Shown here: positions 4,158-7,657 of the stretch, piece by piece | How positions within the stretch are numbered: the first letter of the stretch is position 1 | How the letters are laid out: each line of letters opens with the position of its first letter | Source: an uncultured Winogradskyella sp. | Lineage (GTDB): Bacteria > Bacteroidota > Bacteroidia > Flavobacteriales > Flavobacteriaceae | Assembly (NCBI RefSeq): GCF_947498345.1 | Contig: NZ_CANMJY010000004.1 | Coordinates: 62,001 to 126,000 of the forward strand | Direction: 5' to 3' | DNA: 64,000 bases | Notes under the pieces: generated by a model | Databases searched by the model: none | The model's input: the letters and a program-made list of their open reading frames with translations, nothing else | What the model was told of the DNA's origin: nothing | Position numbers and translations under genes: made by a program

Positions 4158-6158
4158 ATGCCTACCATAACTAAAAGCATTATAGATTACGATAAAAGGA
4201 ACCTTAACAACAAGACCCTTTTAAAGCTGTATTACAATATGTTGAGACCTCGATTAATTGAGGAAAAGATGCTCATTTTGTTGCGTCAGGGAAAAATTTC
4301 TAAATGGTTTTCTGGTATTGGTCAAGAAGCTATTTCTGTAGGTGTTACTATGGCGCTTAAACCTAGCGAATATATTTTGCCTATGCATAGAAACTTAGGC
4401 GTTTTTACCACAAGAGAGATTCCTTTACACCGATTGTTTTGTCAATGGCAAGGAAAATCTAGTGGATTTACTAAGGGTAGAGATCGCTCATTTCACTTTG
4501 GAACCCAAGAGTATAATATTGTGGGTATGATTTCTCATTTAGGTCCACAACTTGGTGTAGCAGACGGAATTGCTTTGGCTAATTTATTAAAGAAAAATGG
4601 ACAAGTAACAGCTGTATTTACTGGAGAAGGAGGGACAAGTGAAGGCGATTTTCATGAAGCTTTAAACGTTGCGTCTGTTTGGCAATTGCCAGTAATTTTT
4701 TGTATTGAAAATAACGGTTATGGTTTATCTACGCCAACAAGTGAACAATATAAATGTAAACACCTAGCAGATAGAGGTAAAGGCTATGGCATAGAATCGT
4801 TTATTTTAGACGGTAATAATATTATAGAAACCTATTCTAAAGTTAAAAAATTAGCCGAAAGTATAAGGAAAAGACCTAGACCAATATTAATTGAGTTTAA
4901 AACATTTAGACGCCGAGGACATGAAGAGGCTAGTGGTACCAAATATGTACCAAAAGCTTTAATTGAAGAATGGGAAGCTAAAGACCCCATTGAAAACTTT
5001 AGAAGCTATTTGTATAGTAAAAAGATATTATCTGCTGAAATTGATGAAAAATACATCACCGAAATTAAGGCAGAAATAGACTCTTCTTTAACATCAGCTT
5101 ATGCTGAAGAAGCTATTGTACCAGATGAAGCCATTGAATTAAATGATGTTTATAGATCATTTAATTATCAAGATATTAAACCAAATTCTAAAACTAAAGA
5201 ATTGCGATTAGTTGATGCTATTTCCGAAGGTTTAAAGCAAGCTATGGAAAAGCATGAAGACTTGGTTATTATGGGACAGGACATTGCAGAGTATGGAGGT
5301 GTTTTTAAAATAACCGAAGGTTTTGTAGAACAATTTGGCAAAGGGAGAGTACGTAATACACCAATTTGTGAATCTGCAATTATTGAAGCTGGTATGGGCT
5401 TATCTATAGCTGGTATGAAAGCTGTTGTAGAGATGCAATTTGCAGATTTTGTAAGCTCTGGTTTTAATCCTATAGTCAATTATTTAGCGAAATCGCATTA
5501 TCGTTGGGAGCAACAAGCAGATGTTGTGGTTCGTATGCCATGTGGAGCAGGTGTTGCTGCAGGTCCTTTTCATTCTCAGACCAATGAAGCTTGGTTTACT
5601 AAGACTCCAGGTCTAAAAGTGGTTTATCCGGCATTTCCATATGATGCCAAAGGTTTGTTAGCAACTGCAATTAATGACCCTAATCCTGTACTTTTCTTTG
5701 AGCATAAGGCATTATATAGAAGTGTTAGACAAGATGTTCCGACAGATTATTATACGTTACCTTTTGGAAAAGCTGCACTTTTAAATGTAGGAGACGCAAT
5801 AACTGTAATTACTTATGGTGCAGGTGTACATTGGGCTTTAAAAACCTTAGAGAATAATTCAGACATCTCTGCTGATGTCATAGATTTAAGAACATTACAA
5901 CCTATGGATAAGGATACTATTTTAAGCTCGGTTAAAAAGACTGGTAAAGCTATTATTCTGCAAGAAGATAGTATGTTTGGAGGTATTGCAAGTGATATTT
6001 CTGCCATGATAATGGAAGATTGTTTTGAGTATCTCGATGCACCAGTAAAACGTGTCGCAAGTATGGAAACGCCTATTCCTTTTATTGGACAATTAGAAAA
6101 TCAGTATTTGGCTAAAAGTAAGTTTGAAAGCGCTCTAAGAGAACTTTTTAATTACTGA
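4158..6158 (+). CDS. Fused alpha/beta E1 of a 2-oxoacid (branched-chain type) dehydrogenase
   Basis: A 666-residue thiamin-diphosphate enzyme. It decarboxylates branched-chain 2-oxoacids, or possibly other 2-oxoacids, and passes the acyl group to lipoyl E2. Residues 1 to about 330 are the E1 alpha domain. The TPP motif runs from GEGGTSEGD near residue 156 to ENNGYGL near 184. Residues from about 345 are the E1 beta transketolase-like domain: VIMGQDIAEYGGVF, ending with the transketolase C-terminal domain. In many bacteria these are two genes; the fusion is common in Bacteroidota. No E2 or E3 gene is adjacent. It is monocistronic and followed by a strong hairpin terminator. Branched-chain specificity is inferred from family resemblance. 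Confidence 0.9.
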   Translation: MPTITKSIIDYDKRNLNNKTLLKLYYNMLRPRLIEEKMLILLRQGKISKWFSGIGQEAISVGVTMALKPSEYILPMHRNLGVFTTREIPLHRLFCQWQGKSSGFTKGRDRSFHFGTQEYNIVGMISHLGPQLGVADGIALANLLKKNGQVTAVFTGEGGTSEGDFHEALNVASVWQLPVIFCIENNGYGLSTPTSEQYKCKHLADRGKGYGIESFILDGNNIIETYSKVKKLAESIRKRPRPILIEFKTFRRRGHEEASGTKYVPKALIEEWEAKDPIENFRSYLYSKKILSAEIDEKYITEIKAEIDSSLTSAYAEEAIVPDEAIELNDVYRSFNYQDIKPNSKTKELRLVDAISEGLKQAMEKHEDLVIMGQDIAEYGGVFKITEGFVEQFGKGRVRNTPICESAIIEAGMGLSIAGMKAVVEMQFADFVSSGFNPIVNYLAKSHYRWEQQADVVVRMPCGAGVAAGPFHSQTNEAWFTKTPGLKVVYPAFPYDAKGLLATAINDPNPVLFFEHKALYRSVRQDVPTDYYTLPFGKAALLNVGDAITVITYGAGVHWALKTLENNSDISADVIDLRTLQPMDKDTILSSVKKTGKAIILQEDSMFGGIASDISAMIMEDCFEYLDAPVKRVASMETPIPFIGQLENQYLAKSKFESALRELFNY

Positions 6159-6180: not shown

Positions 6181-6222
6181 AACTAAAGAAACCAATACAG
6201 ACATGTATTGGTTTCTTTAGTT
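6181..6222. terminator. Perfect 19-bp hairpin, probably a bidirectional terminator
   Basis: The arms 6181-6199 and 6204-6222 are perfectly complementary around a four-base GACA loop. The arms begin AACTAAAG and end CTTTAGTT. It lies 22 bases after the E1 stop codon on one side and 26 bases after the last micro-ORF stop on the other, so it can end transcripts from both directions. It lacks a long T-run. Confidence 0.75.
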
Positions 6223-6248: not shown

Positions 6249-6320
6249 TCATAACTTAATAGTTTCTAAGTCATCATCTAAGCTATTAGATGTATTGACA
6301 ATTTTTGATAAAGCTCTCAT
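6249..6320 (-). CDS. Micro-ORF copy 1, diverged (23 residues)
   Basis: The third and most downstream of three minus-strand micro-ORFs. It starts MRALSKIVN, ends LETIKL and is acidic, unlike the other two. It shares with them the MRxL start and the upstream leader, which reads TAAACTAAACAATT just before the ATG, as at copy 2. It looks like an older duplicate whose coding part has been replaced or has diverged. Translation is not proven. Confidence 0.4.
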   Translation of the reverse strand: MRALSKIVNTSNSLDDDLETIKL

Positions 6321-6356
6321 AATTGTTTAGTTTATTGATTGATGAATTGCGCGTTA

Positions 6357-6443
6357 TTACCTATAACGTCTTTTACTGTTCCAAGTATAACTTTTTGTGT
6401 CTGCTGTTGTACCTGTTAATTGATTGTTGTTTAAAGTTCTCAT
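6357..6443 (-). CDS. Micro-ORF copy 2 (28-residue cationic peptide)
   Basis: A 28-codon ORF starting MRTLNNNQL and ending KSYTWNSKRRYR, with a strongly basic C-terminus and one tryptophan. It differs from copy 3 in only six of 87 bases. Four are synonymous third-position changes (Asn6, Gly11, Asp15, Thr16) and the other two fall in one codon, giving Ile to Ala at residue 14. That pattern favours a translated peptide under selection over a neutral repeat. I recognise no family. There is no hydrophobic segment, so it is not a typical type I toxin. Confidence 0.5.
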   Translation of the reverse strand: MRTLNNNQLTGTTADTKSYTWNSKRRYR

Positions 6444-6477
6444 AATTGTTTAATTTATTGATTGATGAATTTCGTTT

Positions 6478-6564
6478 TTACCTATAACGTCTTTTACTGT
6501 TCCAAGTATAACTTTTAGTATCTATTGTTGTGCCTGTTAATTGATTATTGTTTAAAGTTCTCAT
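6478..6564 (-). CDS. Micro-ORF copy 3 (28-residue cationic peptide)
   Basis: The first of the three in transcription order. It has 28 codons, begins MRTLNNNQL, ends KSYTWNSKRRYR, and matches copy 2 except at residue 14 (Ile). The ATG is preceded by AAAAACGAACAAAC, loosely like the leader of the other copies. The repeat period is 121-123 bases. A terminator lies at the end of the set and the 3D-domain gene runs divergently at 6684, so the three would form their own small transcript. No clean TAnnTTTG promoter was found on this strand; TATATAG near 6590 is a weak candidate. Confidence 0.5.
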   Translation of the reverse strand: MRTLNNNQLTGTTIDTKSYTWNSKRRYR

Positions 6565-6683
6565 GTTTGTTCGTTTTTAATTGATTACACTATATAGACG
6601 TCATAAAAAAGGAAATGTTACAGTACTTTGCATAACATAGTAATGATTTAACAAATTTTAACTATTAAGTGTATCTTTAATCT

Positions 6684-7097
6684 ATGAGAATAGGAACTTA
6701 TACTTTATTATTCATAACAATATTTAGTTTTAATTGCAAGTCAGAAATAGAAGAGAGTTGTAACTCAAAAATATTTCAAGTCACAGCTACAGCATACAAT
6801 TCATTTGCATATCAGACCAGTTCTAATCCTAATATTACTGCTTTTGGGGATAGTTTAAAACCTGGATATAGATATATTGCTGTATCTAGAGATTTATTAG
6901 ACTCTGGCTTAGTACATAACACTAAAGTTAAGATAGAAGGTTTTGATAGCTTTTTTACAGTAAAGGATAAAATGAATAAACGTTGGCGAAAACGGATAGA
7001 CATTTATATGGGTGTCGATGTTAAAAAAGCAAAAAAATGGGGCAAGAAAATGGTGAGCATTGAATATTGTATCCCAATAAAAGATTCTATCTTTTAA
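6684..7097 (+). CDS. 3D-domain (RlpA/MltA-like) lipoprotein
   Basis: A 137-residue protein with an N-terminal lipoprotein signal (IFSFNCKS, likely lipidated Cys). A 3D-domain follows: FQVTATAYNS opens the double-psi barrel and the conserved aspartates lie in AFGDSL, VKDKMN and RIDIYMG. 3D-domain proteins bind or cleave peptidoglycan. Here the function is probably in the envelope, but lytic activity cannot be shown. It ends four bases inside the convergent exbD gene. Confidence 0.82.
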   Translation: MRIGTYTLLFITIFSFNCKSEIEESCNSKIFQVTATAYNSFAYQTSSNPNITAFGDSLKPGYRYIAVSRDLLDSGLVHNTKVKIEGFDSFFTVKDKMNKRWRKRIDIYMGVDVKKAKKWGKKMVSIEYCIPIKDSIF

Positions 7098-7657
7098 TTG
7101 CGTTTTACCATAACTTCAGAAACTATAAAAGGATATGCTTTTTTAACGATTTTTAATTCAGCATCTGTAATTTGTTCTGGTGACTTATTAAACGTTTCTT
7201 TTATGTAACGTGCTCTTAAATCGTAAAAAGCTTTGGTAATTTCATCTTGTACGGAAATAAAAACATGATACTTAGTTAAGGCATTGTGACTTAAAGAAAT
7301 TACAGCTTTACTCGGATGATCTGATGACTTTGATAATTTTTCTCCATTACAATAATCACAATTAGATAGACCATTATTATCAACAAATGCCTTTACGATT
7401 TGTTGAATATCTTCAAGTTTAACAATTTCATTTTTAACAAAAATTTCATCATTGCTATTTAAATTGATCCTTAACAGGTTTCTTTCATTAGTACCTTTAC
7501 TACAGTCATTAGTTGGACAATCATCAGGTAATTGTCTTAGTATGCCTTTGTCAGCAGAAATAGTTGTAGTGACCAAAAAGAAAATAAGTAACAAAAAGGC
7601 AATGTCAGCCATGGATCCTGCGTTGACCGTCGCAGAATGTTTTCGAATTGATTTCAT
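7094..7657 (-). CDS. ExbD/TolR-family transport protein
   Basis: A 187-residue single-pass inner membrane protein. The N-terminus SATVNAGSMADIAFLLLIFF holds the membrane segment with the conserved Asp of the ExbD proton path. The periplasmic domain has LRINLNSNDEIFVKNE and HNALTKYHVFISVQDEI. ExbD works with ExbB and TonB to drive outer membrane receptors. No ExbB or TonB is next to it, so this is a stand-alone paralogue in this window. A Cys-rich insert near residue 100 (CDYCNGE) is unusual for ExbD. Confidence 0.88.
   Translation of the reverse strand: MKSIRKHSATVNAGSMADIAFLLLIFFLVTTTISADKGILRQLPDDCPTNDCSKGTNERNLLRINLNSNDEIFVKNEIVKLEDIQQIVKAFVDNNGLSNCDYCNGEKLSKSSDHPSKAVISLSHNALTKYHVFISVQDEITKAFYDLRARYIKETFNKSPEQITDAELKIVKKAYPFIVSEVMVKRN

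Follow-up and report, generated by a model that had tools for sequence, protein, structure and literature searches.

CcaF1, a DUF1127 protein of 71 amino acids (aa), is RNA-binding, and its operon combines a stress-sigma promoter, four small RNAs, repeated elements and a terminator (PMC10253847). The Agrobacterium SDPs, DUF1127 proteins of under 50 aa, bind the kinase PhoR (PMC12501420). Our analysis concerns a 64,000-nt stretch from an uncultured Winogradskyella sp. (contig NZ_CANMJY010000004.1, positions 62,001 to 126,000; hereafter the window), in which two tandem copies of a 28-codon gene, P28, are followed by a second small gene, P22. Judged by their sequences, these are almost certainly real genes, and the set appears to be the local case of a system spanning the family Flavobacteriaceae, with a stress-type promoter and a peptide tail common to other micro-open reading frames (micro-ORFs). 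As an overall reading we propose, tentatively and with a little less than an even chance, a short envelope-stress operon of micro-genes encoding soluble peptides with an RNA- or regulator-binding tail. Its elements in the window, including a putative promoter of the extracytoplasmic function (ECF) type, are as follows.

6478–6564, minus strand: P28 copy 1, MRTLNNNQLTGTTIDTKSYTWNSKRRYR, 28 codons and stop.
6357–6443, minus strand: P28 copy 2, MRTLNNNQLTGTTADTKSYTWNSKRRYR, 28 codons and stop.
6249–6320, minus strand: P22, the second conserved peptide, MRALSKIVNTSNSLDDDLETIKL, 23 codons.
6444–6472, minus strand: spacer leader with ATCAATCA-type sequence, 5' of P28 copy 2.
6595–6622, minus strand: TGTAAC-N16-CGTCTA, ECF-sigma-like promoter core, in the form of known ECF promoters.
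6623–6642, minus strand: dyad TACTATGTTATGCAAAGTAC, tentative regulator site, possibly PadR-like or HTH_34-like.
6645–6662, minus strand: GTTAA direct repeats GTTAAAATTTGTTAAATC, putative OmpR/PhoB-type response-regulator box.
6181–6222, no strand: perfect 19-bp inverted repeat (hairpin), probable terminator, common to the convergent gene ending at 6158.

The initial annotation, made from the sequence alone, had described two 28-codon minus-strand ORFs lying 121 bases apart with six differences, and the window holds exactly this: the starts are 121 nt apart and the six base differences fall in five codons, four of them being synonymous (codons 6, 11, 15 and 16) and the other two lying together in codon 14 (Ile/Ala). 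The selection on the peptide proposed from this pattern is evident over the whole family, where the ratio of nonsynonymous to synonymous differences (pN/pS) is 0.26 in 63 tandem pairs and 0.39 in all pairs, and where substitution is unequal across codon positions, the third being the most variable (entropies of 0.51, 0.54 and 0.88 bits at positions 1, 2 and 3). The copies follow the pattern MRTLNNNQ...WNxKRR[YF]R; 180 are distinct (229 with duplicates), 165 of them of 28 aa and 15 of 29 aa, a uniformity of length and start that is partly by design, as the scan was ungapped, favoured M1 and required a start codon. M1, W21, N22 and R25 are invariant in all 180, and the net charge ranges from +4 to +9, so the cationic character once attributed to all three peptides is right for the 28-mers and wrong for the third ORF, whose window copy has a charge of –1.

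Homologues that keep frame and length are common in relatives, the 28-mer being encoded by 30 of 36 genomes of the same genus. It has three matches in the source genome, and 33 genomes in a draw of 60, the source included, match at E up to 1; two order-level matches (E 0.5 and 0.9) are taken as chance. With a profile (E up to 0.01), 108 of the 299 Flavobacteriaceae genomes sampled have a P28 match, as do 97 of 249 of good quality, and the matches fall in 86 of 236 genera; the weakest of the 108 matches may be chance, and all such frequencies depend on which genomes were drawn. A draw across the phylum gave seven of 296 genomes, with four strong and two weak matches inside the family and a single weak one outside, which has no matching start-to-stop ORF. 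Named genomes yielded 412 pattern matches, 337 of them with a relative, and the titles among the best 80 of these 337 include Winogradskyella, Lacinutrix, Olleya, Psychroserpens, Mangrovimonas, Algibacter, Flavivirga and Seonamhaeicola, some others carrying only order- or phylum-level names. One genome (G064) has ten P28 matches across several contigs. This spread, together with the pN/pS of tandem pairs, rules out chance ORFs.

That the peptides belong to no known family is borne out in the libraries searched. P28 and P22 hit no Pfam family at E up to 10, no match to them in Pfam, NCBIfam, PHROGs, Rfam or PDB was accepted, and Rfam gave none for the locus. For P44, the 44-aa partner introduced below, one member had no Pfam family at E up to 0.01, 19 members reached at best E 0.041 in NCBIfam (single members only), and PHROGs gave one match at E 0.016 and none for P28; neither the P28 nor the P44 profile matched a PDB chain at E below 1. 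An origin as phage, plasmid or viral cargo was rejected, as phage and plasmid records gave no match and none of 20 pattern matches in viral contigs was confirmed. We recognised no paper describing P28 or P22 in the open-access literature, which is weak evidence of absence since residue strings are seldom printed.

Three tandem micro-ORFs had been taken as one set; all three are present, but the third represents a distinct conserved peptide family rather than P28. After the last P28, a loose filter finds a second small ORF in 92 of 123 arrays. The short form, P22, accounts for 57 of these (22–27 aa, type M[KR]xLSKI[VI]NTSxSxDDDLETI) and the 44-aa form, P44, for 33 (43–45 aa, mostly of the type MKxxxKISRxLNxITQEN...WKGxKRYAH, a few diverged), while two of 38–39 aa are probably spurious. 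With pN/pS of 0.32 over 55 distinct sequences, P22 is a conserved type of its own, which rules it out as a decayed P28 copy; its charge is about neutral (–2 to +2 in 57 copies). The signal for P44 is weaker (0.61 over 28 sequences). Its profile occurs in 49 of the 299 family genomes, 45 of them also with P28 and the other four with weak matches, and in 30 of 30 loci examined a P28-type tail ORF ends 27–229 nt upstream of the 44-aa ORF. One 43-aa ORF (L365) begins like P44 and ends in WNSKRRFSY. The predicted structure of P44, a single helix (mean pLDDT 79, pTM 0.35), says little.

The region upstream of the arrays is dense with recurrent sites. GTAAC-N16-CGTC precedes 109 of 123 arrays (maximum 1 in 20 dinucleotide shuffles), and only the spacer of 16 occurred in these 109 when 13–20 were allowed; GTTAA-N4..7-GTTAA precedes 106 (shuffle maximum 3), the strict dyad 64 (shuffle maximum 0), and a ATCAATCA motif or AATCAATTA lies upstream of 75 of 123 first P28 copies (shuffle maximum 5), counts that overstate their weight because related arrays are not independent. 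The composite GTTAA...GTAAC-N16-CGTCTW has 34 matches, some overlapping, in 15 genomes versus 1 when reversed, and stands before a CarboxypepD_reg-type envelope protein in seven of ten Winogradskyella genomes, before a 113-aa secreted protein in two and before an ankyrin-like secreted protein (judged by eye) in two. We consider the array promoter very probably ECF-type, and the site form and the companion genes would point to envelope stress. The 113-aa secreted protein, which has no Pfam match, lies 3' of P28 in some genera, in a DUF1348 operon in L361 and, in Winogradskyella, behind the composite stress promoter alone (loci concerned: L056, L061, L139, L049, L361, L209 and L210).

Searched as DNA, the tail WNxKRR[YF]R gave 159 matches in 92 of the 299 family genomes versus four in reversed controls, and 32 versus none in 40 relatives. 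Most of these are P28. Other settings were read from 40 stretches around selected matches, eight of which lack a start and look like chance; the remaining tail-bearing micro-ORFs measure 18–51 aa. Those of 18–20 aa lie directly 3' of a DUF1348 gene in operons led by a TetR-like gene (L051, L216, L346, L347, L355 and L361) and precede a CMD-, isochorismatase- or hydrolase-like gene, L346 differing downstream; DUF1348 and CMD are Pfam-confirmed for L361 and assigned by eye at the other loci. P28-like ORFs stand before an ABC ATPase in L302, L353 and L379 (by eye), tail ORFs of 35–41 aa occur in L283, L285, L349, L360 and L370, and one of 51 aa in L340. In L283 and L285, from two Winogradskyella genomes, the 35-aa ORF is convergent with an RNase G-like gene (by eye). 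Taken together, the loci examined contain 261 ATG-initiated tail ORFs: 228 have 28 aa, 16 have 29 aa and 17 differ in length. Part of the loci had been selected through the tail itself, and each ORF was read from its nearest ATG, so that a 16-aa entry reflects an internal ATG and L360 is too short. The basic aromatic tail, constant across such settings, is likely a contact surface. A wider generalisation, which we rate as speculative and rather unlikely, is that the octapeptide is a portable C-terminal module on many Flavobacteriaceae micro-ORFs with differing N-termini, in stress, transport, two-component and detoxification operons, forming a family-wide micropeptide regulatory code. This code would target the ribosome, or else a single RNA or protein common to all, and the tandem P28 arrays, induced by stress, would supply the module at high dose.

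The window set ends at the perfect 19-bp hairpin reported earlier, which is the strongest element of the folded window transcript and was not among the listings of a simple terminator scan; comparable hairpins lie 3' of 73 of 122 arrays versus 0.7 expected. A repeated A-rich leader precedes P28 copy 2 and the third ORF, the leaders of the unit forming a 43-nt repeat with 93% identity. The neighbouring gene (6684–7097, plus strand, 137 aa), which is divergent from the array, has no Pfam or NCBIfam match, and past it lies an ExbD/TolR-type gene (7097–7657, minus strand); the convergent downstream gene ending at 6158 looks by eye like a 2-oxoacid dehydrogenase. The idea of an independent transcript thus has several signs in its favour, namely the upstream core, the terminal hairpin and the divergent next gene. 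As had been stated, no modification or export gene was recognised adjoining the window array, nor were modification enzymes for ribosomally synthesized and post-translationally modified peptides (RiPPs) recognised among array neighbours in general, distant enzymes not having been searched.

How might such an operon work? The form of the sites and the other genes that carry them suggest that an ECF sigma factor and an OmpR/PhoB-type response regulator would transcribe P28 and P22 in an envelope-stress response, a third regulator perhaps acting at the dyad. The peptides would remain cytoplasmic, and their C-terminal module W-N-x-K-R-R-[YF]-R would adjust the response through contact with RNA, with the ribosome or with an acidic site of a regulatory protein. 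Tandem P28 copies could provide a higher dose, with P22, or the 44-aa peptide that replaces it, as a partner from the same transcription unit. The binding of RNA or a regulator by the tail is a possible step, though on balance a doubtful one. RNA or ribosome binding is favoured here because none of the protein partners tested accompanies P28 from genome to genome; its close rivals are binding to a kinase and control by the nascent chain.

If P28 acted as a nascent chain, the tail at the stop codon would stall the ribosome or slow release and thereby control the next gene, and the free arrays would derive from such leaders. The C-terminus is conserved at the stop codon while the N-terminus varies, the RYR end can be likened to a drug-arrest motif, and micro-ORFs stand directly before a kinase, the ABC ATPase, the 113-aa secreted protein and DUF1348-operon genes. 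Most commonly, however, another micro-ORF and often a hairpin come after the array, which leaves no gene to control, and N-terminal residues of P28 are conserved too; we regard this explanation as unlikely. We give slightly less credit to a direct contact between P28 and a histidine kinase, by which P28 would feed back on the very pathway that activates it through its regulator. In all 7 loci of a sister type of P28 (ITERD/ISERD), the micro-ORF lies 77–100 nt before a histidine kinase gene that is followed by one for an OmpR-type regulator, and DUF1127 proteins binding PhoR offer a precedent (PMC12501420). Of the 299 family genomes, 31 contain the sensor part of this kinase, and P28 co-occurs in 22 of these (Fisher p 4e–5, which ignores relatedness). 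Of 30 kinase genes, 27 have GTTAA-N4..7-GTTAA repeats, like those of the P28 arrays, in the 330 nt before them (50 mononucleotide shuffles gave no more than 2). This supports a regulator of the linked OmpR type as the probable reader of the repeats; most of these 27 genes have no micro-ORF. The best NCBIfam match of the linked regulator is RprY (228 bits versus a cut-off of 370), so it is not an equivalog. In the source genome (L023:2695–2775, minus strand), the sister P28 and the kinase are separated by a long hairpin with ATCAATCA repeats inside it and T-rich sequence after it; by eye it could be an attenuator. Yet only 22 of 108 P28 genomes have the kinase, which rules it out as a universal partner, and the P28 genomes without it therefore need another reader of GTTAA.

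Export of the octapeptide or of the whole peptide, to act on other cells as a signal or antimicrobial, is improbable in our estimate. Tandem copies with a shared C-terminus would suit it, as would loose matches to the promoter core in the source genome before three genes, one matching ABC_tran and the other two resembling ABC-transporter genes by eye. But inspection by eye showed no signal peptide or leader, neither a modification nor an export gene was recognised beside the array, and the tail is nearly identical across genera, unlike specific signals. Of the roles first suggested (signal, antimicrobial, RiPP-like precursor or RNA-binding peptide), binding of RNA or a regulator fits best, and a signal or antimicrobial gained no positive support. 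It is very improbable that the repeated unit works as a non-coding RNA with incidental ORFs. Such a role would be consistent with the repeated leaders, with a window transcript that folds better than 100 shuffles (z –3.5), and with synonymous conservation at the 5' end of P28 (synonymous differences, pS, of 0.35 in codons 2–10 versus 0.64 in codons 21–28), which suggests an added nucleotide-level constraint there. Nevertheless, the low pN/pS speaks for the peptide, the P28 consensus fold over 20 aligned sequences reaches just –1.5 kcal/mol and one of its 11 pairs is compensatory, and Rfam has no match, so a structured RNA is not supported even though the window transcript folds well.

It should be noted that several observations weigh against the envelope-stress operon with a binding tail. 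In two Winogradskyella genomes (G001 and G006) the composite site precedes the envelope gene, but P28 gives no match. The looser core alone is not enriched genome-wide in the source genome (10 matches versus 6 reversed), which makes single matches unreliable, and before the ECF sigma gene of that genome the core has a spacer of 17 instead of 16 and ends about 10 nt before the ATG. This sigma gene (L169, contig C10, about 15,850) is followed by a 136-aa possible anti-sigma gene without a Pfam match. The dyad, with up to two mismatches, is near background there (12 matches versus 7 reversed), so its other sites are unsure; two dyad regions contain an HTH_34 regulator and a DUF4870-PadR pair, and the PadR link is only a lead. 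The kinase, present in just 31 family genomes, cannot be the partner in most P28 genomes. Finally, P28 and P44 profiles show no significant relation, and the two are not supported as one family.

P28 is thus a strongly conserved protein family, with a dense promoter, that corresponds to none of the curated families in the libraries searched, and its system offers a concrete and testable way into the stress regulation of Flavobacteriaceae. Tandem copies combined with codon-level selection can expose genes below the usual annotation sizes. Should the shared tail prove to work in trans, many operons would be reusing one short peptide module, an unusual situation.

Among known systems, arrest and leader peptides of the TnaC and ErmL types are short ORFs before genes with key residues near the stop codon, like some P28-type settings. 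P28 differs from them in occurring mostly as free multi-copy arrays without a downstream gene: a gene lies 3' of some micro-ORFs and is absent for most arrays. The ribosome-associated proteins bTHX and SRA are short, basic and Trp-containing, as is P28, which differs by its patchy distribution, its stress-type promoter and the lack of a PDB match at E below 1. The arginine-rich DUF1127 (YjiS-like) proteins are likewise small and basic, and the CcaF1 operon resembles that of P28 in its stress-type promoter, repeats and terminator. They belong to a different phylum, and P28, P22 and the P44 member searched have no Pfam match that would join them; moreover, in P28 the gene itself is repeated and the tail is fixed at the C-terminus. 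By analogy, DUF1127 small proteins are the nearest working model for P28, which does not appear to be a member of that family.
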